From Hyphococcus flavus (GTDB taxonomy: Bacteria > Pseudomonadota > Alphaproteobacteria > Caulobacterales > Parvularculaceae): a stretch of 64,000 nt of DNA. The translations under genes were made by a program, and so were the position numbers. Location of the stretch: assembly GCF_028748065.1 (NCBI RefSeq), contig NZ_CP118166.1:635501-699500 (forward strand), in the 5' to 3' direction. The notes under the pieces are model-generated. The model saw only the letters and a list, made by a program, of their open reading frames with translations, was not told the DNA's origin and ran no database searches. Shown in pieces: positions 1 through 13,859 of this stretch (its first letter is position 1; every line of letters starts with the position of its first letter).

Positions 1-390
1 GAATTGAGCATCGCGTCGCCTGCTGTTGCAGCGGCGTGGACAAAATCCATTCGCGCGCCCGAAACAATGACCGATGCAGACATCAGGATGGTGGAGTCCC
101 ATCTTGTCGCCGTGACGCTGCAATGGGACAATCTGTTTCAGATGGAGGACAGCGGACTTGCCAGCCGCGCGCGAACAATAAGGCACATTCAAAACACCGC
201 GCCTTATTATTTCGGCTCAGCACATGCGAAAAACTGGTGGCGGCTGCAGGAACAGGGCTGGGAAAATACGCCCATGGTGGAAGTGGCTGGGCCGGTCATC
301 GAAGCGCTCGATCCGGATTTCTTGCTTAACTATCTGGAAAGCAGCCGGTTGAGCGCGCCGCCTCCGTCGTCAGAGGAGGCAGTTGAGTAA
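1..390 (+). CDS. C-terminal part of an array membrane protein (cut by window edge)
   Basis: The reading frame is open from base 1 and stops at 388-390, so only the last ~129 residues of the protein are present. They are helical, Trp-rich (N-W-W around residue 79) and end in a Pro/Ser/Glu tail. The TAA stop shares its final A with the ATG of the next gene, the same one-base overlap used throughout the downstream array, so this is very probably the last part of another array member. Its conserved N-terminal helix would lie left of the window and cannot be checked. The apparent TTG start at 4 is only an artefact of the edge. Confidence 0.7.
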   Translation, partial: ELSIASPAVAAAWTKSIRAPETMTDADIRMVESHLVAVTLQWDNLFQMEDSGLASRARTIRHIQNTAPYYFGSAHAKNWWRLQEQGWENTPMVEVAGPVIEALDPDFLLNYLESSRLSAPPPSSEEAVE

Positions 391-1190
391 TGCTCCTCCG
401 CCGCATCACCGAACATGTCAAAGCCCAGAACTGGACCGCCGTCGCGCTCGACTTTGTCATTGTCGTTGTCGGCGTCTTTATCGGGGTGCAGATCGGCAAC
501 TGGAACGCCTCGCGTCAACAACATCAAATCTATGAGGAAGCGTTCGACCGGACAATTGTCGAGCTGCAAACCAATCTCGAATCGCTGGAGTCGACTCGAG
601 AAACAGTTGAAACAAGTCTTCCCCTCGTTCAGCAGGCGATCGAGGATCTGCGCGCTTGTCGCGCGGGTGACGAAGCCCACGCCAATGTACAGGCCGCCTT
701 TGCCCCGACAGGCGTATTGGTCAGCTTTGCTCTGGACACAAAAGCCCTCGACCAATTGATCAATAATGACAATTTTCTGCCCTTCCAGACGCCGGACACC
801 CGAAAACGCCTGATGGCTTTGTCGACAAGGCTCAATACGTTGCAACAAAAGTCCATGAGCATGAATGAACGCACCGCCATGACGGCGAAAGATGTCTCTC
901 ACATCGTACAGCCTGGTCCGCTGGTGATGGAAGGCCCGGATCAGATTGTTGACGCGCTGCGACAAGGCGTTATCGGAAGCCCGGAAATGGTTCGGAAAAG
1001 CACGCTAATGGCGCCGCTGGCGCAAGTCTGTGAAGACGAGGCGTTGCGCAATAGATTCTACGCTTGGGAAGCCGAAGCCTATTATCATTCGGTGATGGCG
1101 GCGTTGGCGATAGAACGCATCCGCGAAAACCTTGAAGCGTTTGGGCGCCCAGTAAAGGCGACCGGCGATGTGACGGAAGAAACGAAATGA
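390..1190 (+). CDS. Array membrane protein 1 (DUF6090-like)
   Basis: 266 residues. Residues 1-39 are the array signature: a basic start (R-R-I-x-E-H-V-K), a membrane helix at about 16-36 with a buried Asp at 21, then Q-x2-N-W-N. Positive charges before the helix predict an N-in, C-out single-pass protein with a periplasmic C-terminal part. The C-terminal part is helical with coiled-coil character and has two isolated Cys. It keeps only a degenerate form of the family core (T-x2-L-x3-G-x-L-x2-I-x-D-x2-L-R), around residues 112-135. GGAGG lies 10 bases before the ATG, which overlaps the preceding TAA by one base. The next gene starts in an ATGA overlap. The family link rests on the motif only; function is unknown. 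Confidence 0.85.
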   Translation: MLLRRITEHVKAQNWTAVALDFVIVVVGVFIGVQIGNWNASRQQHQIYEEAFDRTIVELQTNLESLESTRETVETSLPLVQQAIEDLRACRAGDEAHANVQAAFAPTGVLVSFALDTKALDQLINNDNFLPFQTPDTRKRLMALSTRLNTLQQKSMSMNERTAMTAKDVSHIVQPGPLVMEGPDQIVDALRQGVIGSPEMVRKSTLMAPLAQVCEDEALRNRFYAWEAEAYYHSVMAALAIERIRENLEAFGRPVKATGDVTEETK

Positions 1191-1924
1191 TCCTGCGCCG
1201 CATCACCGAACACGTAAAGGCCCAGAACTGGACCGCCGTGGCGCTCGATTTCGTCATCGTCGTTGTCGGCGTCTTCATCGGCATTCAGGTCGCCAACTGG
1301 AATGATGCGAGGCAAGAGCGTGCGACGGAAGCGACCTATCTGAGGTCATTGCAAACGGATATCGCGGTATCGACCAATCTTCTCGATGAGCACATGGCTC
1401 ATATCGCTGATCGCCAGCGGGCGCTCGCCGTGCTCGCCAACGCCGACAAAGACGCCGTCGCGCGCGAGGTCTTTGACGATCTCATGCGCATTGGGCTTTA
1501 TGAGCTGCAGTTTCTCAATGTTCAGCGCAACACCTATCAGGCGCTGGAGAATGCCGGACGGATTGGCGTGCTGCGGGATCTGGCGTTGCAACAGTCACTG
1601 GTCGACCAGACCGTGCAGATTGCGGCGATCCGCGAATACGAAGCGGATATGGCTCGGTTCCAGCATCGCTGGGTCGATGAGTTTCTCCTCGAAAACTATC
1701 ACATCAGCAACATGATTGACTTCGACGGGGCGGAGGTAGAGGGCCGTCGCGACGACATTTCCGATTACACGCAAATGCTCGACGACCGGCGGATCCGGAA
1801 CCTGTCCGCATTTCTTTACGACATACTTAATGAACAGCGTGCTCACGCCGAGACCTTGCGAGCCGCTTATGATTCCTCGGCCGCGAACGCCGCCGCGCGC
1901 CTTGCCAGACTGGGAGAGAACTAA
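1187..1924 (+). CDS. Array membrane protein 2 (DUF6090-like)
   Basis: 245 residues with the array N-terminus (membrane helix ~16-36, Asp21, Q-V-A-N-W-N at 34-39). The periplasmic part has a clear family core near residues 110-135 (T-Y-Q-A-L-E-N-A-G, then I-G-V-L-R-D-x-A-L). It resembles members 11 and 12 more than its immediate neighbours, with no Cys pair. Translation starts at an ATGA overlap with the preceding stop, with GGAAG a few bases upstream; the next gene overlaps by one base (TAATG). It is expected to be translationally coupled in one long mRNA. No enzymatic motif is visible. Confidence 0.87.
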   Translation: MILRRITEHVKAQNWTAVALDFVIVVVGVFIGIQVANWNDARQERATEATYLRSLQTDIAVSTNLLDEHMAHIADRQRALAVLANADKDAVAREVFDDLMRIGLYELQFLNVQRNTYQALENAGRIGVLRDLALQQSLVDQTVQIAAIREYEADMARFQHRWVDEFLLENYHISNMIDFDGAEVEGRRDDISDYTQMLDDRRIRNLSAFLYDILNEQRAHAETLRAAYDSSAANAAARLARLGEN

Positions 1925-2697
1925 TGATCCTCCGCCGCATCACCGAACACGTCAAAGCGCAGAACTGGACCGCCGTCGCGCTGGACTTTGTCATTGTCGT
2001 CGTCGGCGTTTTCATCGGTATTCAGGTCTCGAACTTGAACGCGGCGCGGGCGGATCATGTGCGCGAAGCCCGATATCTCAACAACCTTGCTGTCGAAATC
2101 AGGGAAGAAGTTGTTGCGTTGGATGAGGTGATGCTTGCTCATCGCGCGCGCATAACGGTGATTGATAGGATGTTAACCGATGCGGGCGGCGCCCCGCCTC
2201 GGCGGGAGAGCAGAATGTCAGCACCCGCAAACGCGGTTGATGTCGCCAGGAAGTTTCCGGCGCCGGAGTTTCTTCCCATCGCTGAGGATGAGCGCGAGTA
2301 TTTTTTGAACTACGGTATCCTTGCGCGGACATTCAATGAAAAGAACACGACGTTTCGCACCCTGCAATCGACCGGAGATATCACAATTTTAAGGGATGAG
2401 ACTCTAGCTCTCGATATTTCGGATTACTACGCCAATATCGAGGATTTGATTTATTTTGAAGGCGGTACTGCGCGCCATGCGCGCGATGCGACAACAGCGG
2501 TCGCCAGGCGTCACGGCTTCAATCCTTTTGGCGAAAACTCATATGATCTTGTCGTGACCGCGCTGCGGGAAGATCCGGAATTCACCGCCTCTTTGCGTGC
2601 GCTTTACAATGTTTCCATCTTGAATCACTTCGTGATTGCCAATTTAAAACGTGAAGCAGAGGAGATTTTGGCCAGGCTTCCGGATGGTGAAGTATGA
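1924..2697 (+). CDS. Array membrane protein 3 (DUF6090-like)
   Basis: 257 residues. The N-terminal signature is kept, but the usual N-W-N reads N-L-N here (residues 37-39), the only copy to lose that Trp. The variable part carries the core T-F-R-T-L-Q-S-T-G-D-I-x-I-L-R-D around residues 140-155, followed by an S-D-Y-Y turn. A GGGAG ribosome site lies ~7 bases before the ATG, inside the end of the preceding gene. The following gene starts in an ATGA overlap. Predicted to be inner-membrane anchored with a helical periplasmic domain; role unknown. Confidence 0.87.
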   Translation: MILRRITEHVKAQNWTAVALDFVIVVVGVFIGIQVSNLNAARADHVREARYLNNLAVEIREEVVALDEVMLAHRARITVIDRMLTDAGGAPPRRESRMSAPANAVDVARKFPAPEFLPIAEDEREYFLNYGILARTFNEKNTTFRTLQSTGDITILRDETLALDISDYYANIEDLIYFEGGTARHARDATTAVARRHGFNPFGENSYDLVVTALREDPEFTASLRALYNVSILNHFVIANLKREAEEILARLPDGEV

Positions 2698-3473
2698 TTC
2701 TTCGCCGCATCATCGAACACGTCAAAGCGCAGAACTGGACCGCCGTCGCGCTCGACTTCGTCATTGTTGTTGTCGGCGTCTTTATTGGGATTCAGGTCGC
2801 CAACTGGAATGACATGCGTCGCCTTAACCAGACTACACAAACCTATTATGATCGCCTAATTGACGATCTGCGCGCTGAACAGAAAATGCAGGCCGAACTT
2901 GCCGGGTATTATGATCAGGTCAAACGTCACGGCGTCGCGACATTGGCTAGACTGGAAGCGGGGGAGATACAGGCCAGTGAGGAATTCTTTATTGACGCAT
3001 ACCAAGCGTCTCAAATCCGTTATTACACTGCGCAAAGAGCAACGTATAATGAACTGCTTGGCGCCGGAATTGCGAGCGCTATTCCTGACGCCGAGCTTCG
3101 CAGCCTGTTGGCGACGTATTACCTCACGTTAGGAAATGCGGAGCGCCTTCATGAAGAGACGACGCCCTATCGTTCGAATCTTCGGATTTATATGCCGTAC
3201 AGGTTGCAGGCGCTCATACGTGAAAAATGCAAGGAGAAATTCATTTTGCAGGACGACGGCTCTCTCGTTGTTGATCTGACGGGTGAGTGTAGCTTGAATG
3301 CGAACCCGGAGTTATTACAACAATCATTGTTGGCGCTGCAGGATTATGACGCAATGGAACGTGAGCTTGGGCGCCATTTAAGTAATATCGATATCAAAAT
3401 CATCTCGTTGCAGATTTATCAAGAGTCGACAAAGAGTATTCTTGACGCTCTAGTTGCGGAGCGCGAAAGATGA
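2694..3473 (+). CDS. Array membrane protein 4 (DUF6090-like, Cys-pair subgroup)
   Basis: 259 residues, array N-terminus intact. The variable part belongs to a subgroup shared with members 5, 9 and 10: an A-Y-Q-A-S-Q motif, then T-Y-N-E-L-L-G-A-G, a tyrosine pair (T-Y-Y), P-Y-R, a basic/Pro segment and two Cys separated by 19 residues (K-C-K ... E-C-S). Both Cys would face the periplasm and could form a disulfide; that is inference. The ribosome site is weak (GGTGAAG), so expression probably depends on coupling through the ATGA overlap with member 3. Another ATGA overlap joins it to member 5. Confidence 0.87.
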   Translation: MILRRIIEHVKAQNWTAVALDFVIVVVGVFIGIQVANWNDMRRLNQTTQTYYDRLIDDLRAEQKMQAELAGYYDQVKRHGVATLARLEAGEIQASEEFFIDAYQASQIRYYTAQRATYNELLGAGIASAIPDAELRSLLATYYLTLGNAERLHEETTPYRSNLRIYMPYRLQALIREKCKEKFILQDDGSLVVDLTGECSLNANPELLQQSLLALQDYDAMERELGRHLSNIDIKIISLQIYQESTKSILDALVAERER

Positions 3474-4231
3474 TCCTCCGCCGCGTCATCGAACATGTGA
3501 AAGCCCAGAACTGGACCGCCGTCGCGCTCGACTTCGTGATTGTCGTCGTCGGCGTCTTCATCGGTATTCAGGTTGCGAATTGGAACGCGGAGATTGCCGA
3601 AAGAAAGCGGGCGCACAGTAATCTCGAGCGTATCTACGGTGATCTCGCACTAGACGAGCGTTTATTGACGTTGCGCCTCGACTTCTGGGCGCAGGTTTAT
3701 GATTACGGCGTCGGCGCTCTGGCCGTCGCTGAAGGCCGTGAGCAACAGCCGGAAGAAGCGTGGCCGCTTGTTCTTGCTTTCTATCAGGCGAGCCAGGTCT
3801 CGCATTTCAACAAGGTGGATACGACCTACGAAGAGCTGAAGGGCGCCGGCGAACTTGCGCTGATTGACGACCTTGAGCTGCGCACGACAATCGCTCGTTA
3901 TTACGCAGGCGCAGGCCGGAAACTCTTTATGTTCTCCACGCTGCCCCTCTACCGCGAACGCATTCGCGCCATGACGCCATTCGATGTGCAGAACTATATC
4001 TGGGACGCCTGCCACCAATCGGACATAGAAGAGCAGAGTCTCATCGAATGCCCGTCACCGATCAGCGCGGCGCGCGCAGAAAATATTCTGGCAATGTACC
4101 TTAACGACGAAGAGCTGGTGAATGAATTGCGCTTCTGGATGGCCGAACTTCGTATGACGATTGGCGTGGCCGAATCCACGCTTTCCGATGTCAGGGCAAC
4201 AGCCCAGCAAGTTGCAGGTGCGCTGAAATGA
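3470..4231 (+). CDS. Array membrane protein 5 (DUF6090-like, Cys-pair subgroup)
   Basis: 253 residues. After the standard N-terminal helix and Q-V-A-N-W-N, the C-terminal part has F-Y-Q-A-S-Q, T-Y-E-E-L-K-G-A-G-E-L-A-L-I-D-D-L-E-L-R (the fullest form of the family core) and a Cys pair 12 residues apart (A-C-H ... E-C-P). It is the best reference for the core motif. A GGAG sits 8 bases before the ATG, which overlaps the previous stop as ATGA; the same overlap links it to the next gene. Predicted inner-membrane protein with periplasmic C-terminus. Confidence 0.87.
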   Translation: MILRRVIEHVKAQNWTAVALDFVIVVVGVFIGIQVANWNAEIAERKRAHSNLERIYGDLALDERLLTLRLDFWAQVYDYGVGALAVAEGREQQPEEAWPLVLAFYQASQVSHFNKVDTTYEELKGAGELALIDDLELRTTIARYYAGAGRKLFMFSTLPLYRERIRAMTPFDVQNYIWDACHQSDIEEQSLIECPSPISAARAENILAMYLNDEELVNELRFWMAELRMTIGVAESTLSDVRATAQQVAGALK

Positions 4232-4989
4232 TCCTCCGTCGCGTCATAGAACACGTAAAGACCCAGAACTGGGTCGCCGTTTTCCTCGACTTCGTTATCG
4301 TCGTCGTCGGCATCCTCATCGCATTTCAAATCAACGCATGGTCGGCGCGACAGGCAGAAAAACAATCCTTGCACGTTGCGCTGGAACGATTGCGTGATGA
4401 AATCCAGTTAAACATCGGCGTTATTGATGAGAATTCGAAACTGCACGACGACATTGCCGCTGCCGGTCACGAATTGCTTGACGCAATTCGTGACCCGGAA
4501 TTGGATGAAATTCCCATGGTGTTGATCGGCACTGTCTTCGCTGAAGGATTCACCAGCGATTACTCAACAGGAGCGCTCACCTATGTGCTGAACCAGCAGC
4601 CATTTCACAATACTGAAAATGGCGACCTCCGACGCATAATTACAACTTTGCCGGCGCAATACCTAGATGCGCTGGAGGATGAGAGAGTCACAATCCAGCT
4701 TCTTGATAGGCAATGGGTGCCCTATATTAGCCAATATTTGCCAGTTGAAACATTCTGGAATTTGGTCAACGAGAAAAGAGACAGGGCGGGATCATTCCAA
4801 TCGGAAGACGGCGCTACCATCCAAGATGTTGTTTCATTGGATGAGTTCAAACAGCTCGCATCGACCCTGAGGTTTCAAAACGAAATTGTAAATCGCATAG
4901 GGTATCAAGATCTAATCGTGATTGAGCAACGGGAGTTGCGAAAAGTTCTTGGGCAGGCTCTGGCGCTGATTGAAGAGGAGTTAGAATAG
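4228..4989 (+). CDS. Array membrane protein 6 (DUF6090-like, divergent N-terminus)
   Basis: 253 residues. This copy has the most diverged signature: the helix reads F-L-D-F-V-I-V-V-V-G-I-L-I-A-F-Q-I and ends N-A-W-S. That is close to the general DUF6090 pattern (G-I-L-I-A-L-Q-x-N-x-W), so it best supports the family link and may be an older or less homogenised member. The variable part lacks a clear core and has no Cys pair. It is joined to its neighbours by an ATGA overlap upstream and a TAGTG overlap downstream. Role unknown. Confidence 0.85.
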   Translation: MILRRVIEHVKTQNWVAVFLDFVIVVVGILIAFQINAWSARQAEKQSLHVALERLRDEIQLNIGVIDENSKLHDDIAAAGHELLDAIRDPELDEIPMVLIGTVFAEGFTSDYSTGALTYVLNQQPFHNTENGDLRRIITTLPAQYLDALEDERVTIQLLDRQWVPYISQYLPVETFWNLVNEKRDRAGSFQSEDGATIQDVVSLDEFKQLASTLRFQNEIVNRIGYQDLIVIEQRELRKVLGQALALIEEELE

Positions 4990-5825
4990 TGCTCCTGCGC
5001 CGCGTCATCGAACACGTAAAGACCCAGAACTGGACGGCCGTCGCGCTCGACTTCGTCATTGTTGTCGTCGGCGTCTTCATCGGTATTCAGGTGAGTAACT
5101 GGAACGATGCTCGCGGCGAACGGCAGCGCGAAACGCAAATTCTGGGGGATATCGCAACCGACATCGCCGCTGATATTGAGGGCTATGACATCGCAATCGA
5201 TGGCGCCCTGGTCCGTATCGCGACCATGAATTACATATTTGAAAATACGCCCAGTGCGGCGTTAAGCGCTTTGATGCCGGACACGGAACAGGTCGAGCTG
5301 CACCTGAGCTGGTCCAGCGATATGGAAGAATCCGTGCGCTTAGGGTCACAAAATAATGAGTTCAATTTCGAAGAATATGCCGCGGCGGCGAAAGAAAGTT
5401 TATGGTCGTCTGCTGTGATTGTCGGCAATGTCGAGCGGAGCGCTACGGCTTCGGATGCGCTCGTAAATTCGGGTGAGCTGGGCATTCTCAGAAACAAGGA
5501 AATCGTACGTCAATTACAGGAATATCGCCTTATTACGGCGGCGATTGAAAACTCCCAGGATGTCACATTTCGCCCAGCGCGAGATGCGGCGATAGAAGTG
5601 GGACAGAAATTTGGTCTGGCCGCCTTTGGTGCGGTGGACGAGGAAAAATTCTTACAACTCGTCAGCGCGGAACCTGAATTGGCCGCGACGTTGCAATCGC
5701 AATTAGGATGGGCGACGGGTCATTATTTAATGCTTGTCGCGGCTGACCAGTCCGCGCATAGGCTTTTACAGAATATTCGAACCGAGCTCGGCGAAATGCC
5801 CGGCCAAACTGACGGTGTGAAATAA
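4989..5825 (+). CDS. Array membrane protein 7 (DUF6090-like, GTG start)
   Basis: 278 residues, the longest member. It starts with GTG whose G is the last base of the preceding TAG (TAGTG), with AGGAG 8 bases upstream, so this start is well supported. The N-terminal signature is standard (Asp21, Q-V-S-N-W-N). The C-terminal part has a degenerate core (S-G-E-L-G-I-L-R-N around residues 160-168) and no Cys. It overlaps the next gene by one base (TAATG). Predicted single-pass, periplasmic helical domain; function unknown. Confidence 0.86.
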   Translation: MLLRRVIEHVKTQNWTAVALDFVIVVVGVFIGIQVSNWNDARGERQRETQILGDIATDIAADIEGYDIAIDGALVRIATMNYIFENTPSAALSALMPDTEQVELHLSWSSDMEESVRLGSQNNEFNFEEYAAAAKESLWSSAVIVGNVERSATASDALVNSGELGILRNKEIVRQLQEYRLITAAIENSQDVTFRPARDAAIEVGQKFGLAAFGAVDEEKFLQLVSAEPELAATLQSQLGWATGHYLMLVAADQSAHRLLQNIRTELGEMPGQTDGVK

Positions 5826-6637
5826 TGCTTCTCCGCCGCGTCATAGAGCATGTGAAAACCCAGAACTGGACCGCCGTCGCGCTCGATTTTGTCATTGTCG
5901 TCGTCGGCGTGTTTATCGGTATTCAGGTGTCGAACTGGAACGATGCGCGCGCCGAGCGTGTAGAGGAGCGGCAATTGCTGACGCGGCTTCTCGAAGAGAC
6001 CGGCTCGCTTCTGGAAATCCAGAAATACGAATATTCAAGGCATTTGCCGCGCATCGACGCGATGAGCGGTATTCCGCCTTTGCTGTTCGATCCGCCGCCG
6101 GGCCGGGACCTGACGGAAATCGAATGCCGCCTCATTACCATCTCTCACTGGCTGCCGGCGCCAAGCGATGAATTGCCCATATTGGAGGAGTCCATTGCGA
6201 CGGGCCGCTTCGACCTGATTTCAAATGAAGATGTGAAGGCGCAATTGCGCGGCTTCGCGCTGGTTCGCAATCGGTCCCGCCGCCAATACGAGGAATCAAT
6301 TAATGAGTTGTTCCGGCTTTACTCCCGCCATCCCGATGCACTCTGGTTTGTCCGCAGGCCGATTGATGAGGTCAAGGATATGCCTGTGTGGCTGCAGCGC
6401 GATTCAACGCAATTGGCGCGGAGCGCGGGCGACGGCTACCGCTTATGGAACGAATGCGATCTGGAGCAAATGCGCCATAACAAAGCCTTTCTCGGGGAGT
6501 ACGCAGACAATCTCTCGCGGCTGAATTCTTACGTTGAACGATATGAAGAAACGATCGCAGCGCTTGAGGACCTGGAGGAGGCGCTTGCGACTGAACTCGG
6601 CGTTCCTCAATTGTCTGAATTGGGAGGGCATCCCTGA
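5825..6637 (+). CDS. Array membrane protein 8 (DUF6090-like)
   Basis: 270 residues with the standard N-terminus. The variable part is distinctive: a Pro-rich stretch (P-P-P-G-R near residue 91), then E-S-I-A-T-G-R-F-D-L-I-S-N matching the family core, and a long charged helix near the end (E-R-Y-E-E-T-I-A-A-L-E-D-L-E-E) likely to form a coiled coil. Two Cys are present but not in the subgroup spacing. The ATG overlaps the previous TAA by one base, and the TGA overlaps the next ATG by one base. No catalytic motif seen. Confidence 0.86.
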   Translation: MLLRRVIEHVKTQNWTAVALDFVIVVVGVFIGIQVSNWNDARAERVEERQLLTRLLEETGSLLEIQKYEYSRHLPRIDAMSGIPPLLFDPPPGRDLTEIECRLITISHWLPAPSDELPILEESIATGRFDLISNEDVKAQLRGFALVRNRSRRQYEESINELFRLYSRHPDALWFVRRPIDEVKDMPVWLQRDSTQLARSAGDGYRLWNECDLEQMRHNKAFLGEYADNLSRLNSYVERYEETIAALEDLEEALATELGVPQLSELGGHP

Positions 6638-7410
6638 TGCTCCTCCGCCGAGTCATTGAACACGTAAAGGCGCAAAACTGGACGGCCGTCGCGCTCGACT
6701 TTGTCATTGTCGTCGTCGGCGTCTTTATCGGCATTCAGGTGGCGAACTGGAACGAGGCGCGGGCCGACCGTTCGCTGGGCGAGGATTACACCGTCCGGCT
6801 CGTCGCCGATCTTGAAAATGATCTAACGGCGGCGCGCACGCTGACCAGCTATTATAACGTCGTGACCCAGAACATTAAGATGACCGACAATTTGCTCTCG
6901 AGCCCCGACCCCGGTCCGAAAGCCTTGGTCGTCGCTGCTTACCGGGCAAGCGAGTTCAGCAGTAATCCGTCGAACCGGGCGACGTGGGATCAGGTCGTCT
7001 CATCTGGGCATCTGGGTCTGCTCCCGGCCGCCGCCATAGAAAGCGGCCTGCCGGATTATTACAGATTCCAGGACAGCAATGATGACACGATTGCGCGGTT
7101 ACAAGATACGCCATACAGACGGAAAGTTCGTTCGCTCATTCCTCTGGCTGTGCAGATCTCGATGCGAGAGGGCTGTAGCGATGAGATGGATGACAATCAG
7201 GTTATCGTCGGCTTTGTGACCAACTGCAATCTGGATGTGGATGCATCCACAATCAACGAAACAGCGCGCGAGCTTATAGCTTCTGCTGAACTGCGCGAAT
7301 TGCTTCGATATCAATATTCCATGGTCGCATCGGTGCAGATCAATAATACCGGCAATGTCGCTCTTTTGGAGAAAATCCTAAACGCCCTCAATGCGGAGGA
7401 TACTGACTGA
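6637..7410 (+). CDS. Array membrane protein 9 (DUF6090-like, Cys-pair subgroup), end of first block
   Basis: 257 residues. Standard N-terminus, then the subgroup features A-Y-R-A-S-E, a core with S-S-G-H-L-G-L-L, D-Y-Y, P-Y-R and two Cys 16 residues apart (G-C-S ... N-C-N). GGGAGGG lies about 8 bases before the ATG, which overlaps the previous TGA by one base. This is the last gene of the first tightly coupled block: 145 non-coding bases follow before the exported protein gene at 7556. No strong intrinsic terminator is visible in that gap. Confidence 0.87.
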   Translation: MLLRRVIEHVKAQNWTAVALDFVIVVVGVFIGIQVANWNEARADRSLGEDYTVRLVADLENDLTAARTLTSYYNVVTQNIKMTDNLLSSPDPGPKALVVAAYRASEFSSNPSNRATWDQVVSSGHLGLLPAAAIESGLPDYYRFQDSNDDTIARLQDTPYRRKVRSLIPLAVQISMREGCSDEMDDNQVIVGFVTNCNLDVDASTINETARELIASAELRELLRYQYSMVASVQINNTGNVALLEKILNALNAEDTD

Positions 7411-7555
7411 CGCGCCTTGGCACTGTTTAGCCGAAACTTCGGGCAGCGGGAGTTCAATTTATGCCTCCAAACGGGGCGTTACAGGCGCGCTTGACTCATT
7501 AACCCTGATCGTTTCTGCTAATCGTTCATGACGATGTTGCAACAGGAGGCATCTC

Positions 7556-8131
7556 ATGGCGACCTTTAACAAGAAAGCCATTGTTCTTTCGGGCGCGGGG
7601 CTGGCGGCCGCCGGTTCCGCTACGCTGATTGCGTTAGCCCTCGACGGCGACACGGTCGTGAACGAGGCGGAAGCGGTTCGCGATACGGGCGTTTCTGTCG
7701 CCCAAGCCGAACCCAGCGAAAGCGCTGATAGCGCTCAACAAGAACCGGCTGCGATTAATAACAATAGCACCAGGCGCGCTGTCAGCATTGATTTTTCCCG
7801 CGGCGGCGTCGATGACCTTCGGGACCTTCAGTTGACGGAGCTTTTATCGAAACTCGAAAGCGTCCCCGGTGTTTCCGACGACACAAAAGTCTGGATCGCA
7901 TCTGCGGATGTGGCGAGCACGCCGGGTTCTGAAACGCTTTATCATATCAAAGGGCCGCTCACATGCGGCAGCGCCGGTTGTGACCTCATCGTCGCCGGCG
8001 GATCGCAAATATTGCTGGAGACTGTCGGCGAAAGCGTCGATGCGCCGGCAATCGACACGCTCATCATTAATCAAGGCACGAGCTCTGAGACTGTTTGGGA
8101 ATTCAACGGCGACAGGTTCGTCAGGAAATAA
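7556..8131 (+). CDS. Exported protein A with P-L-T-C-G-S-x-G-C motif
   Basis: 191 residues. AGGAGG six bases before the ATG sets the start. Residues ~8-30 form a hydrophobic, Ala/Gly-rich signal or anchor segment, followed by a Glu/Ser/Asn-rich linker to about 80. The C-terminal domain (~85-190) contains T-K-V-W near 106 and P-L-T-C-G-S-A-G-C, and ends with a T-V-W-E-F-N-G-D-R-F strand pattern. It is clearly a paralogue of the next gene: same motif order, same spacing. The two Cys probably form a disulfide outside the cytoplasm (inference). I recognise no named family. It lies between the two blocks of array genes, in the same direction. Confidence 0.8.
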   Translation: MATFNKKAIVLSGAGLAAAGSATLIALALDGDTVVNEAEAVRDTGVSVAQAEPSESADSAQQEPAAINNNSTRRAVSIDFSRGGVDDLRDLQLTELLSKLESVPGVSDDTKVWIASADVASTPGSETLYHIKGPLTCGSAGCDLIVAGGSQILLETVGESVDAPAIDTLIINQGTSSETVWEFNGDRFVRK

Positions 8132-8180
8132 GCGTTTAGCCAGATTAGGGGAAAGGCAAGTGTTTGCCGGGAGGAGTATT

Positions 8181-8732
8181 ATGAAAGCCGTCAGCAAGGT
8201 GACTAAATTGCGTTTTGCATTTTCTGCGCTCGCTGTCTTTGCGCTAGCCGGGGCCGGCGCCAGCGCCGCCAACGCGCAATCAAACCGCAGCCAGAACGAC
8301 GCGGCGCGTGCGGAACTTCAAATCCCGCTTGATCGCCCGGTCGGCGTTGAAGGACGTCTGGCGCAGACACTATGGGGGACTGGGTCGGAAAAGGACCTTT
8401 ACGACATGCGCCTGATCAATGAGGTGCGGCGCCTGGCGCGCGTTCCCGGCGCCATGAGAAATACGAAAGTTTGGACAACAAGGGCCGACGTCAGCGCCTT
8501 GGCGGGTGAAGAAATCCTTATACAGATCAGAAGCCCGCTCACATGCGGCAGCCTCGGCTGTGAAATGATTGTGCTAAGCGAGGCGAGCGGCAGCCCGCTG
8601 GTGTTGTTGCGCACCATCGGGGACACCATCGACGCGCCGCGAATGGACGAGCTGGTGGTCAATCGCGGCTCAAACCGCGAGCGCGCCTGGCGCCTTCGCA
8701 GCAACCGCTTTCAACAGATGGATAAGCGCTAA
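8181..8732 (+). CDS. Exported protein B, paralogue of the preceding gene
   Basis: 183 residues from the ATG at 8181, which has GGGAGGAG just upstream; the frame is open further upstream but that part overlaps the previous gene and lacks a ribosome site. Residues ~10-34 look like a cleavable signal peptide ending in A-N-A-Q. The mature part repeats the features of the preceding protein: T-K-V-W, P-L-T-C-G-S-L-G-C, then L-R-T-I-G-D-T-I-D-A-P and a W-R-L-R-S-N-R-F end. The pair therefore arose by tandem duplication. No catalytic residues are recognised; a small Cys-bridged periplasmic domain is likely. Confidence 0.82.
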   Translation: MKAVSKVTKLRFAFSALAVFALAGAGASAANAQSNRSQNDAARAELQIPLDRPVGVEGRLAQTLWGTGSEKDLYDMRLINEVRRLARVPGAMRNTKVWTTRADVSALAGEEILIQIRSPLTCGSLGCEMIVLSEASGSPLVLLRTIGDTIDAPRMDELVVNRGSNRERAWRLRSNRFQQMDKR

Positions 8733-8755
8733 GCGCATTGGACGGAGTATTTATC

Positions 8756-9388
8756 ATGTTGAATAATGCATTGAAAATTTCAGCAATTACGCTTTGCGCC
8801 GCAGGACTTGGCGCATGCGGCACGACGTCCGGCGCGCCCGGCGGTGGGTCGTCTGGCGGCGGCACGCCGCCCTCCTCCTATGTGGGCGATGTCGACGATT
8901 TTTACGACGCGCTGGCGCAACGCGAATCGAGCGGCAATGCGTCCGTAGAAAACAGCTACGGTTATCTTGGCCTCTATCAGATGGGCGAGCCCGCCATGAT
9001 GGACGCGCAGTGGTATGATGAAACCGCGCCGTCTGAAACATCGGCCAATGACTGGATCGGTTCGTGGCTGACGAGAGCACAAAACAACAGCGTGTATTCA
9101 AAGAACGATTATCTGAACCGGCCAGGCGCGCAGGACGTCGCCGTCCGCCAGTATCATGACCGCGTGGCGGTCTATATTTCCGCGCTCGATCTCCTCAGGT
9201 TTGAGGGCGACATCATCAACGGCGTTGAAATTACGCGCTCGGGCCTTCTCGCGGCCTGTCACCTGTTGGGGTGCGGAACGGTTGAGGATTATCTCGAAGC
9301 GCCGGGTTCTGGCACGCCGGCGGATGCATACGGCACAACCATCGAAGAGTATTTGAGTCTCTTCGCCAATTACGAGACCGACTTTTAG
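8756..9388 (+). CDS. Lysozyme-like (transglycosylase fold) lipoprotein
   Basis: 210 residues from the ATG at 8756 with GGAG upstream; a TTG 18 bases earlier is less likely because it would precede the signal. Residues 1-20 form a lipoprotein signal with lipobox L-G-A-C, then a Gly/Ser linker. The domain starts at ~45 with A-L-A-Q-R-E-S-S-G-N, followed by N-S-Y-G-Y-L-G-L-Y-Q-M-G-E, the pattern of lysozyme-like/SLT domains where the Glu of R-E-S-S is the candidate catalytic acid. Likely role: cutting or binding peptidoglycan from a membrane anchor. It is the third gene of the insert within the array. Activity is inferred from motif only. Confidence 0.75.
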   Translation: MLNNALKISAITLCAAGLGACGTTSGAPGGGSSGGGTPPSSYVGDVDDFYDALAQRESSGNASVENSYGYLGLYQMGEPAMMDAQWYDETAPSETSANDWIGSWLTRAQNNSVYSKNDYLNRPGAQDVAVRQYHDRVAVYISALDLLRFEGDIINGVEITRSGLLAACHLLGCGTVEDYLEAPGSGTPADAYGTTIEEYLSLFANYETDF

Positions 9389-9451
9389 ATTCAGGCTGGA
9401 CTAGTCGCCCTGATATTAGGGCCAGCACGGATTTTCTCTCGACGAGCGATT

Positions 9452-9482
9452 ATCGCGGCCCCTGAAAAGGGCCGCGATTTTT
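9452..9482 (+). terminator. Intrinsic terminator after the lysozyme-like gene
   Basis: A perfect 10-bp stem (9452-9461 with 9469-9478), a 7-base loop and a run of five T. It separates the exported/lysozyme-like genes from the second array block, which must therefore have its own promoter between about 9483 and 9537. Confidence 0.9.
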
Positions 9483-9537
9483 ATTCCGCTGACGGCGGTT
9501 TATGCTATCAAACGCAGAATCAGCCGGGGGGCGAAAA

Positions 9538-10296
9538 ATGCTATTACGCCGCGTCATTGAACACGTCAGAGCCCAGAACTGGACCGCCGTCGCGCTCGAC
9601 TTCGTCATTGTCGTCGTCGGCGTCTTTATCGGCATTCAGGTCGCCAACTGGAATGAAGCACAGGCCGCAAAAGCGCGCGAGACTGAATTGCTGGCCGAGC
9701 TTAAACGTGAAATCGAAACGTCAATTCGCCTCACCAACCAAAAGCGCGACGCCATCGCGCAAGTCGTATCTGCGGGGGAGCGTTCGCTCGATTTCATTAC
9801 GAGCGGCGCCTCATGCGGCGCTGAATGCTGGCCAATTCTGGTTGACTTTTTCCACGCATCGCAGTGGCAACCGATCGATGTCGATCATTCAACTTATGAC
9901 GAGATGCGCCGGCAAGGATTGCCGCGGTCGCGTGCGGTAATCGATGCCGTTGAAGGCTACCTTTCGCAAAACGCCGTACTTACCAGCACACACCTCCTAC
10001 CCCCTTATCGTTCTCTGGTTCGTCAGAATATTCCCGTGGATGCGCAATCCTATTACTGGGACAACTGCTACGATCTCGACAACGGTGCGGAGACTTACGT
10101 TCTCGATTGCCCGAGGGGCGTCAGCCGCGAAATGTCAGCGGCGGCGGTAAATAAAATCATCAACAATCCGGATATTGAACTCTTTCTCACCGAATGGACG
10201 GGCCTGATGTGGTCGACGCCCTCTGGCCTTGGCGAGCAAAACACAGCAGCGCAAACCGCACTCGACGCCATCGAAGCCGAACTGGAGAAACGTTGA
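9538..10296 (+). CDS. Array membrane protein 10 (DUF6090-like, Cys-pair subgroup), start of second block
   Basis: 252 residues from the ATG at 9538, chosen because a G-rich ribosome site (GGGGGG) precedes it and it aligns with the N-termini of all other copies; an upstream in-frame ATG at 9502 would add 12 unrelated residues. Standard signature with R replacing K at residue 11. The variable part has F-H-A-S-Q, T-Y-D-E-M, P-Y-R and a Cys pair 13 residues apart (N-C-Y ... D-C-P), plus an extra C-G-A-E-C. It is the first gene after the terminator and overlaps the next by one base (TGATG). Confidence 0.87.
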   Translation: MLLRRVIEHVRAQNWTAVALDFVIVVVGVFIGIQVANWNEAQAAKARETELLAELKREIETSIRLTNQKRDAIAQVVSAGERSLDFITSGASCGAECWPILVDFFHASQWQPIDVDHSTYDEMRRQGLPRSRAVIDAVEGYLSQNAVLTSTHLLPPYRSLVRQNIPVDAQSYYWDNCYDLDNGAETYVLDCPRGVSREMSAAAVNKIINNPDIELFLTEWTGLMWSTPSGLGEQNTAAQTALDAIEAELEKR

Positions 10297-11051
10297 TGCT
10301 CCTCCGCCGCATTATCGAACATGTGAAGGCCCAGAACTGGACGGCGGTTGCGCTCGACTTCGTCATTGTCGTCGTCGGCGTCTTTATCGGCATTCAGGTC
10401 GCAAACTGGAACGAGGCGCAAGCGGAAAGCCGCAGAGCATTTCAGTCTCTTGAAGAGCTGCGCGCCGAATACGAATCAATCGCTGTGATCACCGACGAGC
10501 TTGTCGGATTCTATGAAGGCGTTATCGGCGATCTGCAAATTGTGGTGTCGACGGTCCACGAGGGGGGGATCGACGATGAAGCGGAGGCGGCGCTGATCAG
10601 GGCGCTGAGTTATGGAGACGTCTTCGGCGATCCGCCGCCGCCGTCAGGTACGTTCCGCGATCTGCAAAGCGCAGGAGAGCTTCGCCTCATTACTGACAAG
10701 GTATTGCGTCTTCGTTTGATCGAATACGACCAAAGCCTTGAAACAATCAACCTGTCGAACGCTGCGATCACCGATATGATGACGCCCTTCGTCGCGGCGT
10801 TCCGGCGCCATTCTCGTCTTTCAACCAGTTACCAACTCCCAAAGGGCGATGATTTCAGCTTTATTGAGGCCGAGCTTCCCGCGGTTGTCGATGCCGATTA
10901 CGCAGCGCTTTTGTCTGATCCCGAGTTTCGCGTCGCTTCGGAGCAATATCTCCGACTGCAGGTTGGAAGATACTTCAATGCAAAGGTGGCGCAGAGCAAA
11001 GTCCAGCAGATCCAGGCGATGATCGGCCGCAACCTTGCGGAGGCCCGTTGA
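10296..11051 (+). CDS. Array membrane protein 11 (DUF6090-like)
   Basis: 251 residues from the ATG that overlaps the preceding TGA by one base; GGAG lies ~8 bases upstream. The frame is open upstream to 10194 but that part only overlaps the previous gene. Standard N-terminus, then a helical domain with the core T-F-R-D-L-Q-S-A-G-E-L-R-L-I-T-D-x-V-L-R-L-R and E-Y-D. No Cys pair; most like members 2 and 12. The stop overlaps the next start by one base. Confidence 0.87.
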   Translation: MLLRRIIEHVKAQNWTAVALDFVIVVVGVFIGIQVANWNEAQAESRRAFQSLEELRAEYESIAVITDELVGFYEGVIGDLQIVVSTVHEGGIDDEAEAALIRALSYGDVFGDPPPPSGTFRDLQSAGELRLITDKVLRLRLIEYDQSLETINLSNAAITDMMTPFVAAFRRHSRLSTSYQLPKGDDFSFIEAELPAVVDADYAALLSDPEFRVASEQYLRLQVGRYFNAKVAQSKVQQIQAMIGRNLAEAR

Positions 11052-11776
11052 TGCTCCTCCGCCGCATCACCGAACACGTCAAAGCCCAGAACTGGACGGC
11101 GGTGGCGCTCGACTTCGTCATTGTCGTTGTCGGGGTTTTTATCGGTATTCAGGTGAGTAACTGGAATGACGCGCGGGAACAGCGCGCGCAGGAAGAACTT
11201 TATCTGCAACGTCTGGCGCAGGACTTTGACGTTATCATTGACCGGCTGGAATCCGGCTTGCGCGCCAGCCGAGCCAGCGTTGTGTCCGGTCAAATGTTGC
11301 TGGATTATATCGATGCATCGCAACAACAGACCGAAGGCCCGACAAAAGAAGACGCGATGAATGCGCTCATCCGGATCGGGGCGAGCGCCGCCCCCACCGG
11401 ACCATCGGCGACATTCGTGGAAATGGTGTCAACGGGCGACCTCAGCATCATTCGTGATGAAGCCTTGCGCGACGCGTTGTTCGAATACGACCTTGTGGCG
11501 TCGAGCAATCGCGATAGCTGGCAGGTATTGCGTCAGAATATTATCGAGGAGCAGCGCACGGTCTTTTCCTATTATGAAGCGGATTTTGAAATCACGCCGG
11601 AGCAATTGTCGTTTCAGGTAACCGGCTTTGACCATGACAGGTTTTTGTCGGACGACGCCATTCCGCCGGCCATCGGCGTCATCGCCGGCGTTTCCATCAA
11701 TGAAAACCAGCTTCTTTCGCAGCAATTGGAAAAAGCACGGGACGTGCGTAACCATATTACATTGGAAAACGACTAA
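11051..11776 (+). CDS. Array membrane protein 12 (DUF6090-like), last copy
   Basis: 241 residues from the ATG at 11051 (TGATG overlap, GGAGG upstream); a TTG three bases earlier is ignored. Standard N-terminus followed by a domain with T-F-V-E-M-V-S-T-G-D-L-S-I-I-R-D-E-A-L-R and E-Y-D, the cleanest core after member 5. It ends the array: ~180 non-coding bases follow, with an imperfect inverted repeat around 11855-11880 but no T-run, so termination there is uncertain. Confidence 0.87.
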   Translation: MLLRRITEHVKAQNWTAVALDFVIVVVGVFIGIQVSNWNDAREQRAQEELYLQRLAQDFDVIIDRLESGLRASRASVVSGQMLLDYIDASQQQTEGPTKEDAMNALIRIGASAAPTGPSATFVEMVSTGDLSIIRDEALRDALFEYDLVASSNRDSWQVLRQNIIEEQRTVFSYYEADFEITPEQLSFQVTGFDHDRFLSDDAIPPAIGVIAGVSINENQLLSQQLEKARDVRNHITLEND

Positions 11777-11955
11777 GCCTTTCGCTGCGCCGCGTTTCTT
11801 TTGAACCCCTCAATTTGCGCTGACCCCGCCGCTGTTGGCTGGCATGGGGTGTTGCCGGAATTGTTAATTCGCCGGGCAAGCGGCTTCAATCGCCGTTTTG
11901 TCCTTGGAGGGGCCTCTGCGCCGTTCTAAATTCAGGCTTCACGATGGAGACTGAT

Positions 11956-12855
11956 ATGAAACGATTTTGTTCTGCGGCGCTCGCCGCGCTCGCGGTCGCC
12001 GCCGCGCCAGCCTTTGCGCAAACACAGGAACAAGCCGACGTCCTGGCCGCGGAACAAAACTGGCAAGGCGCTGCAAACGCGTATCGCGCTTTACTGTCGG
12101 CTGATGAAGAAAATGCTTCGAACTGGTTCAATCTCGCCAGCGCACTGCACCAACTGGAGGATTACAAGGGTGCTCGTGACGCCTACCTCAAGGCGCTTGA
12201 TGCTGGTTACCCCAGCATTCCCAAGGCGCGTTTCCGGCTTGCCCGCGTTTACATGTCATTAGGTGATGAAGAGAACGCGCTTTCGCAGCTTGAAGAACTG
12301 GCAAGAATTGGCGGCCCGAACGGTAACTTCGTCAGGAACACAGCAGAGTTCGCGCCGCTTGCGGAAGATGAACGTTTTCTCGCCGTCGTTTTGGCGTTAA
12401 CACCGTGTACGGATGATGCCTATCGTCATTTCGACTTCTGGCTTGGCCAGTGGGACGTTACCAGCGCCGGCGCGCCGCAACCCTCAGCGAAGAGCAGTAT
12501 CACTGCAAAACACGGCGGCTGCATGGTGCTCGAAGAATATGAAGTCAATAGCGGCGCCTATACAGGCATGAGCATCAATTACTATGACAATGTCAGAAAT
12601 CTCTGGCATCAGTCATGGATGGCTAACAACGGCGTGCCGGTTTACCTCGAAGGCGGCTTGAACGATGAAGGCGCCATGGTTCTTAGCGACGCCGGTCTCG
12701 ACTACAGCGACATGACAGGCGCGATTAATCGCGTCACCTGGACGCCCAATGATGACGGCAGCGTGCGCCAGCATTGGGAAGTCTCATCAGATAAAGGCGA
12801 AACATGGTCGACGGCGTTTGACGGTCACTACACGCCGCGCGAGGAAAGCGACTAG
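11956..12855 (+). CDS. Exported TPR protein with DUF1579-like C-terminal domain
   Basis: 299 residues from the ATG at 11956, preceded by GGAGA; an ATG 12 bases upstream is possible. Residues 1-21 are a signal peptide ending A-F-A-Q. Residues ~25-120 contain two to three TPR-like helical pairs (W-F-N-L-A-S-A-L-H, A-R-F-R-L-A-R-V-Y). From ~155 the sequence H-F-D-F-W-L-G-Q-W-D-V begins a beta-rich domain like the DUF1579 group (lipocalin-type fold), similar to the gene at 54087. Likely periplasmic; ligand unknown. It stands alone between the array and a convergent gene. Confidence 0.8.
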   Translation: MKRFCSAALAALAVAAAPAFAQTQEQADVLAAEQNWQGAANAYRALLSADEENASNWFNLASALHQLEDYKGARDAYLKALDAGYPSIPKARFRLARVYMSLGDEENALSQLEELARIGGPNGNFVRNTAEFAPLAEDERFLAVVLALTPCTDDAYRHFDFWLGQWDVTSAGAPQPSAKSSITAKHGGCMVLEEYEVNSGAYTGMSINYYDNVRNLWHQSWMANNGVPVYLEGGLNDEGAMVLSDAGLDYSDMTGAINRVTWTPNDDGSVRQHWEVSSDKGETWSTAFDGHYTPREESD

Positions 12856-12867
12856 GCGAAACGCAAC

Positions 12868-13569
12868 TTACGCCGCGAGTTCAGCTTCGCCTGACAATTT
12901 ACGGGAACGCAAACGCGCGCGCACATACGTCACCGGCGTGACGAGCGTTCTTAGCACCGCCAGCACGAAGGCGAATCCGTAAAGCCTGATCCCGGCAAGA
13001 AACACATCTCCATCGACAGACGCCGAAACGATCGGCTTGTCGATAACAGCGCTGGTGATTGGCTTCAAATTATCGGGCCCCAGAAAAAACAGGAAATACC
13101 CGATTGAGCCGGCGACGCCCTGACGAATAAACGCGTCGATCGCCTCGACCGGCGCATAATCGCCGAAGAGATTTTCCTGAACCGCCTGCGGCGCAGAAGC
13201 GTAGCTTAATCCCAGCGCCGAAAAAATGATCAGGAACAGCGCCACTCTCGCCGCATAGGCGCCGGAGAGAAGCGCAATTGTCTGGCCGGGTTGCAGGCGA
13301 TTGATAAGCCAGGCGCGCTTCACGGCTGTTTTATCAAGGTCAGGAACCAAATCAGGAAAGGTCGTGTTGAATATGCTGATGACCTTCGCAATGAGATCCG
13401 CCAGCACAATTGCGATCACCAGCAAAAACAATGCAGACGTCACGGTTAAGTCAGACAGCAAGATATTAATCGTCTCGGACGATCCCATCATTGCGACGAC
13501 GCCGATAAGCACCATCGCCACCACCGATCCTTCAATCGTCTGGCGGACGAGTTTTACTATTCCCAACAT
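12868..13569 (-). CDS. Multi-pass inner-membrane protein, unknown family
   Basis: 233 residues from the ATG at 13569; the frame is open to 13662 but the hydrophobic protein begins naturally at M-L-G-I-V-K-L and the longer form adds a basic Ser/Pro stretch. There are about four to five hydrophobic segments (near residues 12-32, 40-62, 100-122, 155-170 and 195-215), with a charged loop around 65-95 (D-K-T-A-V-K-R-A-W). I do not recognise the family. It is convergent with the TPR gene. The 290 bases upstream, before the penicillin-binding protein gene, show no gene and no clear regulatory motif. Confidence 0.7.
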   Translation of the reverse strand: MLGIVKLVRQTIEGSVVAMVLIGVVAMMGSSETINILLSDLTVTSALFLLVIAIVLADLIAKVISIFNTTFPDLVPDLDKTAVKRAWLINRLQPGQTIALLSGAYAARVALFLIIFSALGLSYASAPQAVQENLFGDYAPVEAIDAFIRQGVAGSIGYFLFFLGPDNLKPITSAVIDKPIVSASVDGDVFLAGIRLYGFAFVLAVLRTLVTPVTYVRARLRSRKLSGEAELAA

Positions 13570-13859
13570 TGAAACACCCCACGAATTTACCAGGCGTGGT
13601 CTGACGGCCTTGCTCACGCCGTGGCGCGCCCCACTCGGCGACGCCGCTGTCACACACCCCAATAGACGCGGTATTGTTGGCTTTTATAGCGCCTCAGCGC
13701 AACAGGCTGGCGCCATCCTCGCTTTCGCCTTACCCGATTGTCATGGAAGTCCCGCGATTGCGCCGCTTTCACGCCTTTTTTGTCGCGCACCAAACGCTCT
13801 ATAGTCTCACGGGCCGGTGCGCCCTATAAGGCGGGCGCGCGGTTACGGTTCGAGTTGTT

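Follow-up and report, generated by a model that had tools for sequence, protein, structure and literature searches.

We analyzed a 64,000-nucleotide stretch of the Hyphococcus flavus genome (C1:635501-699500; the window), which carries a same-strand (+) run of 12 complete genes, g1 to g12, at positions 390-11776. The genome, referred to as G000, is one contig of 3,472,649 bases. The 12 proteins combine a near-fixed N-terminal start of ~39 residues with divergent C-terminal parts (C-domains). We consider it highly likely that these C-domains are exchanged laterally and in a modular manner, within arrays of overlapping genes that hold few duplicate C-domain types per genome and that occupy a site which is empty or differently filled in relatives.

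The contrast between the two parts of the proteins is pronounced. Over the first 40 residues, 11 members have pairwise identities of 82-100%, with 62-72% for g6, while beyond residue 40 the identities among the 12 members are 9-26% in a MAFFT alignment. Within the 39-residue start, 23 positions are invariant and 9 more are nearly so. A profile of the start identified 14 copies in the 3.47-Mb genome (E values of 1.9e-24 to 2.9e-36), of which 12 are within 11.4 kb, a clustering that excludes chance; the other two genes are at C1:2981595 and C1:1418914. All 10 gene junctions of <60 nt in the window overlap by 1 or 4 nt, as do 141 of 153 in 33 loci. Because the genes overlap and are all complete, their products would be expected to be made together, i.e. 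co-translated. A previous sequence-only reading of this DNA described an almost fixed start of ~39 residues followed by diverged C-terminal parts, in agreement with these identities. It counted at least 13 members over positions 1 to 11776; the 12 complete genes were confirmed, while the supposed truncated thirteenth is the end of a gene from another family, and the array itself begins at 390 and is interrupted between g9 and g10 by three unrelated genes at 7556-9388 (Table 1).

Table 1. Genes of the array and features around it (window positions unless a contig or locus is given)
Feature	Coordinates	Strand	Description
ORF (open reading frame) 1-390	1..390	+	3' part of a gene for a 183-aa single-pass protein from another family (L005:16839-17390) with a different membrane helix
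g1	390..1190	+	266 aa; constant start 390-506; start profile E 9.1e-34
g2	1187..1924	+	245 aa; C-domain 88% identical to G027 member at same chromosomal site
g3	1924..2697	+	257 aa; C-domain 89% to G036 (other genus), 86% to G004
g4	2694..3473	+	259 aa; C-domain from a group in which two Cys are invariant
g5	3470..4231	+	253 aa; structure predicted; C-domain 85% identical to G027
g6	4228..4989	+	253 aa; its start is the most diverged of the 12
g7	4989..5825	+	278 aa; GTG start; C-domain kin of 45-47% in G001, G017 and a Paraglaciecola contig
g8	5825..6637	+	270 aa; structure predicted; C-domain 89% identical to G004
g9	6637..7410	+	257 aa; C-domain 79% identical to G027
Interrupting gene 1	7556..8131	+	Small and secreted-looking; nothing in Pfam at E<=0.1
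Interrupting gene 2	8178..8732	+	Resembles 7556-8131 by reading; start chosen by hand (automatic ORF start 7869)
Interrupting gene 3	8738..9388	+	Lipoprotein-like; weak transglycosylase-like match under Pfam cut-off
g10	9538..10296	+	252 aa; C-domain 71% to a Hyphomonas metagenome-assembled genome (MAG), 68% to a Gammaproteobacteria MAG
g11	10296..11051	+	251 aa
g12	11051..11776	+	241 aa; last member of the array
Variable island, ~19.4 kb	C1:629944-649359 (window part 1..13859)	.	Between 142-aa gene and PBP1A-like gene
PBP1A-like flank gene	13860..16022	+	Named by sequence reading; conserved; right edge of island
RcGTA-like gene transfer agent cluster	C1:607144-621409 (L205:4144-18409)		14.5 kb upstream of g1

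Searching with starts and C-domains separately, as the sequence-only reading had proposed, we found that the start follows the host genome and the C-domain does not. The 401 matches to the start were reduced to 271 distinct proteins by removing double-fetched loci, proteins of <180 aa, and start scores of <40 bits; 252 of the 271 had an ungapped anchored start, and the 187 belonging to groups of at least four were used in a nearest-neighbor test, from which nine named lone-gene loci were left out. The nearest start was located in the own genome in 82.8 of 187 cases, where 10.8 were expected (22 genomes or loci; 0/2000 label shuffles). For C-domains, this was the case for 13.5 of 183, with 10.7 expected (401/2000 label shuffles). 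Similarly, pairs without C-domain kinship showed a within-genome excess of start identity of 0.081 (shuffle standard deviation 0.0066; 0/2000), and C-domains showed none. Taxonomic distance accounts for part of this association between start and genome. Among the eight genomes of the same genus, the nearest start was in the own genome in 32.4 of 93 cases (expected 14.4; 0/2000), and the nearest C-domain in 6.5 of 89, which is a deficit relative to the expected 13.9 (61/2000). For the window genes, the closest C-domain kin in other genomes are 86-89% identical for g2, g3, g6, and g8 and 85% for g5, and the lowest best kinship is 28-30% (g1 and g12). Inside the array, kinship between C-domains was detectable by BLAST only for g4-g5, g4-g9, and g5-g10 (25-31%).

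Synonymous divergence (dS) supports that starts and C-domains of the same gene often differ in age. We compared 29 between-genome pairs with a C-domain identity of at least 75% and both starts anchored. In 13 of the 17 pairs in which both genes lie behind another array gene, the start was older (pooled dS of 0.89 vs 0.56 for the C-domain). All six array pairs with a C-domain dS of <0.45 had an older start (0.65-1.0 vs 0.21-0.42), with individual p values of 0.0016 to 0.042 that are uncorrected and come from pairs sharing some genes. The other 12 pairs had an older start in 8 cases and pooled values of 0.61 vs 0.57. As controls, four single-copy pairs with conserved upstream DNA (three among L050-L052, and L106-L107) had a younger start. 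The start of g3 is much older than its C-domain in the comparisons with G036 and G004. The C-domains of g3 and g8 have a dS to G004 of 0.26 and 0.30, respectively, and that of g3 a dS to G036 of 0.29, while rpoB has a dS of 0.91 (G000-G004) and 0.94 (G000-G036); G027 rpoB (30.6% identity, wrong frame) was left out. Thus, the C-domain in common with G036, which belongs to another genus and in which the match is on a 2.9-Mb contig, is about three times younger than rpoB. In five pairs, the best change points were at codons 13, 27, 32, 37, and 41, with twice the log-likelihood difference (2dlnL) at 8.7 to 14.5 in three pairs and only 3.3 and 4.1 in two. Flanking DNA was on average at background similarity, both upstream (0.53; 92 pairs) and beyond the next start (0.55; 41 pairs); the clearest exception was a neighbor pair of G036 and G004 (0.82).

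The chromosomal site of the island varies as well. It is empty in G003, G008, G021, and G025: the genes that lie upstream of the island in the own genome, read by us as helix-turn-helix, oxidoreductase-like, 174-aa, and 142-aa genes, are separated from the PBP1A-like gene by 0.3 kb in G025 and 1.5 kb in G008, and the oxidoreductase-like gene is 1.1 and 0.5 kb from it in G003 and G021. Twelve PBP1A regions were identified, and the nine that we fetched contained no family member. The site is filled differently in G007, in which an array is located between the same flanks and is inverted relative to them, and in G027, in which an array lies beside the same right flank and the left flank is beyond the contig. 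Each of these arrays has 3 of the 12 window members, in another order, i.e. g4, g5, and g6 in G007 (63-76%) and g2, g5, and g9 in G027 (79-88%). At a second site, with gatB- and cysK-like neighbors (by reading), six loci from other species, compared in 15 pairs, had no C-domain in common above 40%; for L128 and L133, only the cysK-like side is visible.

Together, the contrasts between starts and C-domains and the variation at the site support that C-domains are laterally exchanged with joints in or near the start. Recent tandem duplication was rejected as an explanation because the window starts have a dS of 0.72 and the closest C-domains are in other genomes. Recent homogenization of the starts as the main cause is at best a partial explanation, with a start dS of 1.11 within genomes vs 1.40 between genomes. 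Synonymous codons agree at 0.60 for the same position vs 0.46 for different positions. These dS values and the codon agreement point to some homogenization or shared descent, yet selection at the protein level is needed as well. Several observations weigh against exchange in the form proposed. Within the own genus, start identity shows only a weak excess on average (67/2000 shuffles), and 4 of the 17 array pairs lack an older start. Two recent pairs, in which just one of the two genes lies behind another array gene, differ little (0.23 vs 0.17 and 0.49 vs 0.42), and the lone-gene pair L109-L116 has an older start (0.95 vs 0.62; p 0.18), although its surroundings differ so that it is no control. 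Given the background start dS of 1.40, the starts of the compared pairs are not wholly unrelated. Finally, when we looked for C-domains moving along with the start of the following gene, that next start had a pooled synonymous identity of 0.65 (11 pairs) vs 0.62 for the own start (17 pairs); the 3' joint was not located.

In G027 (L124), truncated copies at 5136-5348 and 14882-15091 have the same C-domain beginning on two different starts; as several starts in this assembly contain N runs, the finding may be an assembly artefact. In G007 (L122), a metallopeptidase-like protein (HEMKH motif, by reading) at 9747-10646 opens with 11 residues of the constant start. Its counterpart in G017 (L128, 7314-8180) has a similar, more altered start, and the one in G027 (L124, 10246-11103) has an ordinary-looking start. 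Judged from these sequences, an unrelated metallopeptidase-like gene may have acquired the constant start.

The family was present in 58 of 99 relatives, with 0 to 37 copies per genome and at least 10 copies in 11 of the 99; these copy numbers are lower bounds because several MAGs are fragmented or have N runs at the repeated start. Of 72 named loci, 37 are labelled Marinicaulis, Parvularcula, or Parvularculaceae, and the rest include other Alphaproteobacteria and Gammaproteobacteria. The 154 members fetched from 14 genomes, for several of which only some copies were included, comprise 100 C-domain types at 45% identity and 148 genome-by-type entries. The curve of types was still rising, by ~5 types with the last genome. 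We note that G067, from a different family of the same order, has 25 family matches with more diverged starts (best E value of 1.7e-21). Unlike the arrays, the Alteromonas-type loci L050, L051, and L052 have single-copy members with the same neighbors (thiL/pgpA-like and dxs-like by reading), and the best kin of the g1 C-domain (28-29%) are single-copy genes in Alteromonas-type genomes. In light of the copy numbers, a run of this size is not unusual in this clade, contrary to what had been suggested from the sequence alone. Nor is expanding an apt description of the set, since there are few close copies within one genome. The proposal of interchangeable domains on one platform has good support in an evolutionary sense, in that arrays of different genomes have C-domains in common while a single array hardly repeats one, the start goes with the genome, and the neighbors of related C-domains are mostly unrelated; we looked for fixed one-to-one orthologs, which would speak against such a set, and did not find them even in the arrays at the same site.

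Despite their divergence, the C-domains very probably represent one deeply diverged family, as judged from profile searches. A profile of the g5-group C-domain, with the start removed, matched 205 of 253 family C-domains, which include the sequences used to build it, and none of 468 non-family neighbor ORFs. It recovered 10 of the 12 window members, g7 at an E value of 0.001 only. Iterated searches from six of the eight other members reached all 12, the search from g11 reached 10, and that from g6 reached only g1 and g6; these searches ran in a family-only pool with no independent control. The label DUF6090-like, which the proteins had been given from the sequence alone, applies in part. Two of the 12 members pass the cut-off of 23.5 bits for DUF6090 (PF19578), i.e. 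g3 (23.8) and g6 (24.4), and two proteins did so in the genome-wide search; g1 had no match at E<=1. Over the 182 profile positions, g6 covers 2-126 and g9 2-115, while the other nine of the 11 matching members end between positions 32 and 66. In alignment A4, 78 of 124 members matched DUF6090 at E<=0.01. Searches of Pfam (besides this partial match), NCBIfam, PADLOC, and PHROGs gave no family above noise, no solved structural relative was found, and DUF6090 was named in no paper in the open-licence literature searched.

Both parts of the proteins are under constraint. The ratio of nonsynonymous to synonymous substitution (dN/dS) is 0.11 for the start in the window array and 0.07-0.29 for the C-domain in ten close pairs, and these low values support that both parts are maintained. 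The membrane helix is nearly invariant, with conserved D21, G28, G32, and Q34, and we infer that the start is constrained more than a mere anchor requires. We also considered a type IV pilin-like start. Type IV pilins have G, A, or S before the cleavage site and an acidic residue at +5 of the helix. This candidate was rejected: the only acidic residue of the helix is D21, and the would-be -1 residue (position 16) is T in all window members but g6, where it is V, and is often F in relatives.

Structure prediction had been proposed for all 12 members; we modelled g5 and g8, and these have a common helical plan. AlphaFold gave a predicted local distance difference test (pLDDT) of 95.7 and a predicted template modelling score (pTM) of 0.85 for g5 (87 sequences), and 91.2 and 0.83, respectively, for g8 (124 sequences). 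In both models, helix 2-11 is followed by one helix that starts with the membrane segment and runs from 15 to 81-87, short helices at ~98-106 and ~118-126, a helix from 135 to 155/161, a variable insert containing two paired strands, and a final 39-residue helix. The basic start fits an inside N-terminus under the positive-inside rule. Two Cys are invariant across the 87 sequences of the g5 group, and 260 of the 271 family proteins have 0 (92), 2 (150), or 4 (18) Cys after residue 40, even numbers as expected for periplasmic disulfides. The C-domains are thus predicted to be helical and periplasmic. Foldseek searches of the Protein Data Bank (PDB) gave no match at E<=0.001 for either model, and the VIA matches of the g5 model are to many kinds of helical bundle. 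As modelled, structure and topology suit sensor, immunity, and adaptor roles alike.

The genes around the arrays (gene calls at neighbor loci were mechanical) include several recurrent families. The 183-aa family, whose 3' end opens the window and which has no second copy in the own genome, occurs in 20 of 100 genomes, each of which also has matches to the array family. It is located within or behind arrays in G027, G037, G004, G005, and G011 and away from arrays in G026 and G018. As it is absent from 39 of 59 family-bearing genomes, we rejected it as an obligate partner and regard it as a frequent companion only. Other small single-pass families, with a helix ending in VRQN or IRQ, occur among array members (L005:15856-17390; L122 5394-6499 and 16283-18595; L060 7820-8476 and 10892-11383). 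Between G000 and G007/G027, a 156-aa neighbor gene has 91-95% identity, higher than the 76-85% of the flanking PBP1A-like gene. The set of three interrupting genes recurs within or near the arrays of other species, at 12368-14156 of L122 (G007) and 166-2069 of L135 (G050), and relatives of all three were found inside the G007 array; the set seems to travel as a block.

Of 74 loci, 16 contain membrane-TPR proteins, 20 in total, which are separated from a family gene by 23-5078 bp. Three of seven scanned TPR neighbors have a TIR domain (TIR_2 plus TPR; L063:10262-12607, L130:1685-4006, and L135:4433-6859), and two more TIR-TPR proteins were seen by reading in L119. The TPR protein upstream of the window array (L005:13482-15296) has a TPR match and no TIR match; this array-near copy has two distant relatives in the own genome. 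Among 56 TIR_2 matches in ten array-bearing genomes, at least seven are within 10 kb of the family (one in G007, two in G012, three in G017, and one in G050), where a rough hand estimate gives ~2 to 3 by chance, and none is near the array in the own genome. We treat the membrane-TPR and TIR-TPR proteins as a lead to a partner, one that left the odds of the functional readings unchanged. A Pfam scan of 16 neighbor proteins (eight from the own genome and eight from other loci) identified no recombinase, although no search was aimed at recombinases. As for carriers, 15 stretches in IMG/VR matched the pattern of alignment A3 and none was confirmed, and a search of GenBank phage and plasmid records with g5 as the sole query gave no relative.

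For the function of the array, a co-translated periplasmic immunity or recognition repertoire is the likeliest of the readings considered, although we hold it tentatively. It is favored by analogy, in that the pattern most resembles strings of immunity genes recombining through constant blocks and polyimmunity loci. In the proposed mechanism, the island would encode a co-translated set of inner-membrane proteins. The ~39-residue platform of each would supply a short helix in the cytoplasm and a single membrane-spanning one, which would continue as a long helix in the periplasm and lead to a variable helical domain that often contains a disulfide. An incoming C-domain, acquired from another array or species, would bring a new specificity and become fused to a start already present; the fusion point would fall inside the ~117-bp start or immediately downstream of it, and either homologous recombination or subsequent gene conversion of the start could produce it. 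The incoming envelope-acting agent that is bound would differ from one C-domain to the next and could be a toxin, a bacteriocin, or a phage factor; the constant platform would hold the protein at the membrane and bind a common partner or sister proteins. Because the start is under protein-level constraint, such a common partner can be sought. Some results count against an immunity or recognition role. The type VI secretion system (T6SS) sheath gene VipB was detected in the Escherichia coli control and in 0 of 60 genomes, the own included, although orphan immunity would not require a T6SS in the same genome. PADLOC defence models gave nothing beyond noise (best E values of 0.016, in 2 of 12 members, and 0.034, in 1 of 12). 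The Pfam scan of the 16 neighbor proteins identified no toxin family, and the remaining neighbors were judged by eye. Moreover, in close pairs the C-domains evolve under purifying selection and not under the positive selection of an arms race, and the single-copy members with conserved surroundings in Alteromonas-type genomes fit a housekeeping role.

Other functions account for parts of the data. The proteins might be a set of periplasmic sensors, with a distinct small ligand or peptide recognized by each C-domain and the constant helices passing the signal to a single shared partner (the array-near TPR or TIR-TPR proteins are candidates); this reading is unlikely, but less so than those that follow. 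That co-expressed members mix via the constant membrane helix in a hetero-oligomeric envelope assembly, with subunits swapped by recombination, would agree with the joint translation implied by overlapping genes and with the near-invariance of the helix, including D21, G28, G32, and Q34; as a copy number of 0 to 37 among relatives suits a repertoire better than a fixed complex, we regard it as rather improbable. Phage defence or superinfection exclusion, in which each C-domain blocks the entry of, or senses, particular phages, is about as doubtful: the repertoire-like turnover, the membrane location, and the TIR-TPR genes close to some arrays are in its favor, but neither PADLOC nor the phage, plasmid, and IMG/VR searches gave a confirmed relative, weak Rz-spanin matches in 7 of 12 members (best E value of 0.0036) were judged to be coiled-coil noise, and TIR domains near arrays account for just the at least 7 of 56 matches described above.

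Two further explanations were considered. Largely non-adaptive turnover, in which genes come and go at a repeat prone to recombination and bring hardly any advantage, would explain the range in copy number as well as the truncated copies and gaps in the G027 assembly where the start is repeated; with the constrained C-domains, all 12 window genes open, and the types mostly non-redundant, there is little to recommend it. A constant start with a variable rest is also typical of families that undergo antigenic variation by switching one expressed copy. Such switching is very improbable here, because the overlaps at all ten junctions and the completeness of the genes lead us to expect that members are made together and because the predicted site is the inner membrane and periplasm, not the surface.

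Returning to the immunity or recognition repertoire, a more far-reaching version is that an open pool of at least 100 kinds of periplasmic recognition domains circulates in Alpha- and Gammaproteobacteria and is clipped through recombination onto each species' own start, giving a co-translated, non-redundant set of proteins that pair with each other via the membrane helix; in Alphaproteobacteria, a gene transfer agent, with parcels of ~4 kb or about five genes, could be the courier. We consider this proposal speculative and its truth improbable. The gene transfer agent cluster upstream of g1 includes GTA_TIM (E 4e-146), Rcc01698_C, capsid, prohead protease, portal, terminase, and tail genes. 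According to the available text of PMC10883770, DNA delivered by gene transfer agents integrates by homologous recombination, and exchange is expected to stay confined to close relatives, which argues against this route between genera.

Among known systems, the array is closest in pattern to the type VII secretion system immunity families esaG, tipC, and tsaI of Firmicutes. As described in the accessible part of PMC9484751, these form strings of non-identical paralogs, with 12 esaG genes in RN6390 and 15 tipC genes in one Streptococcus mitis strain; they combine variable regions with constant blocks, through which esaG and tipC recombine, and differ in copy number from strain to strain. Similarly, the array consists of tandem non-identical paralogs in which a constant block and a variable rest are very probably joined by recombination. 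According to the same text, TipC is membrane-bound and outward-facing, and tsaI has one conserved 5' block over the first two membrane segments, with little recombination found. There, esaG and tipC each contain at least two homology blocks; the array genes are constant in the start only. The array also differs from all three families as presented there in its proteins and phylum, in that no linked toxin or secretion system was found, and in the exchange inferred between genera. Homogeneous polyimmunity loci, in the portion of PMC3482391 available, are likewise tandem paralogs of one family and are thought to protect against many toxins; the array is without a toxin link, its C-domains are far more diverged from each other, and the available portion does not mention its family. 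As a run of orphan protective genes, the array would resemble the rAID orphan immunity arrays of gut Bacteroidales (PMC12247911, in the part available); the rAID genes in that text carry SUKH domains, are recombinase-associated, and face T6SS effectors. Finally, Pfam DUF6090 shares with the array the membrane helix and the following stretch, with only the two members named above passing its cut-off. A functional repertoire of this kind would predict a new envelope-directed conflict or sensing system. As far as the available text of PMC9484751 allows the comparison, a pattern like that of the recombining immunity strings of Firmicutes is now seen in Proteobacteria, with exchange that appears to extend between genera.

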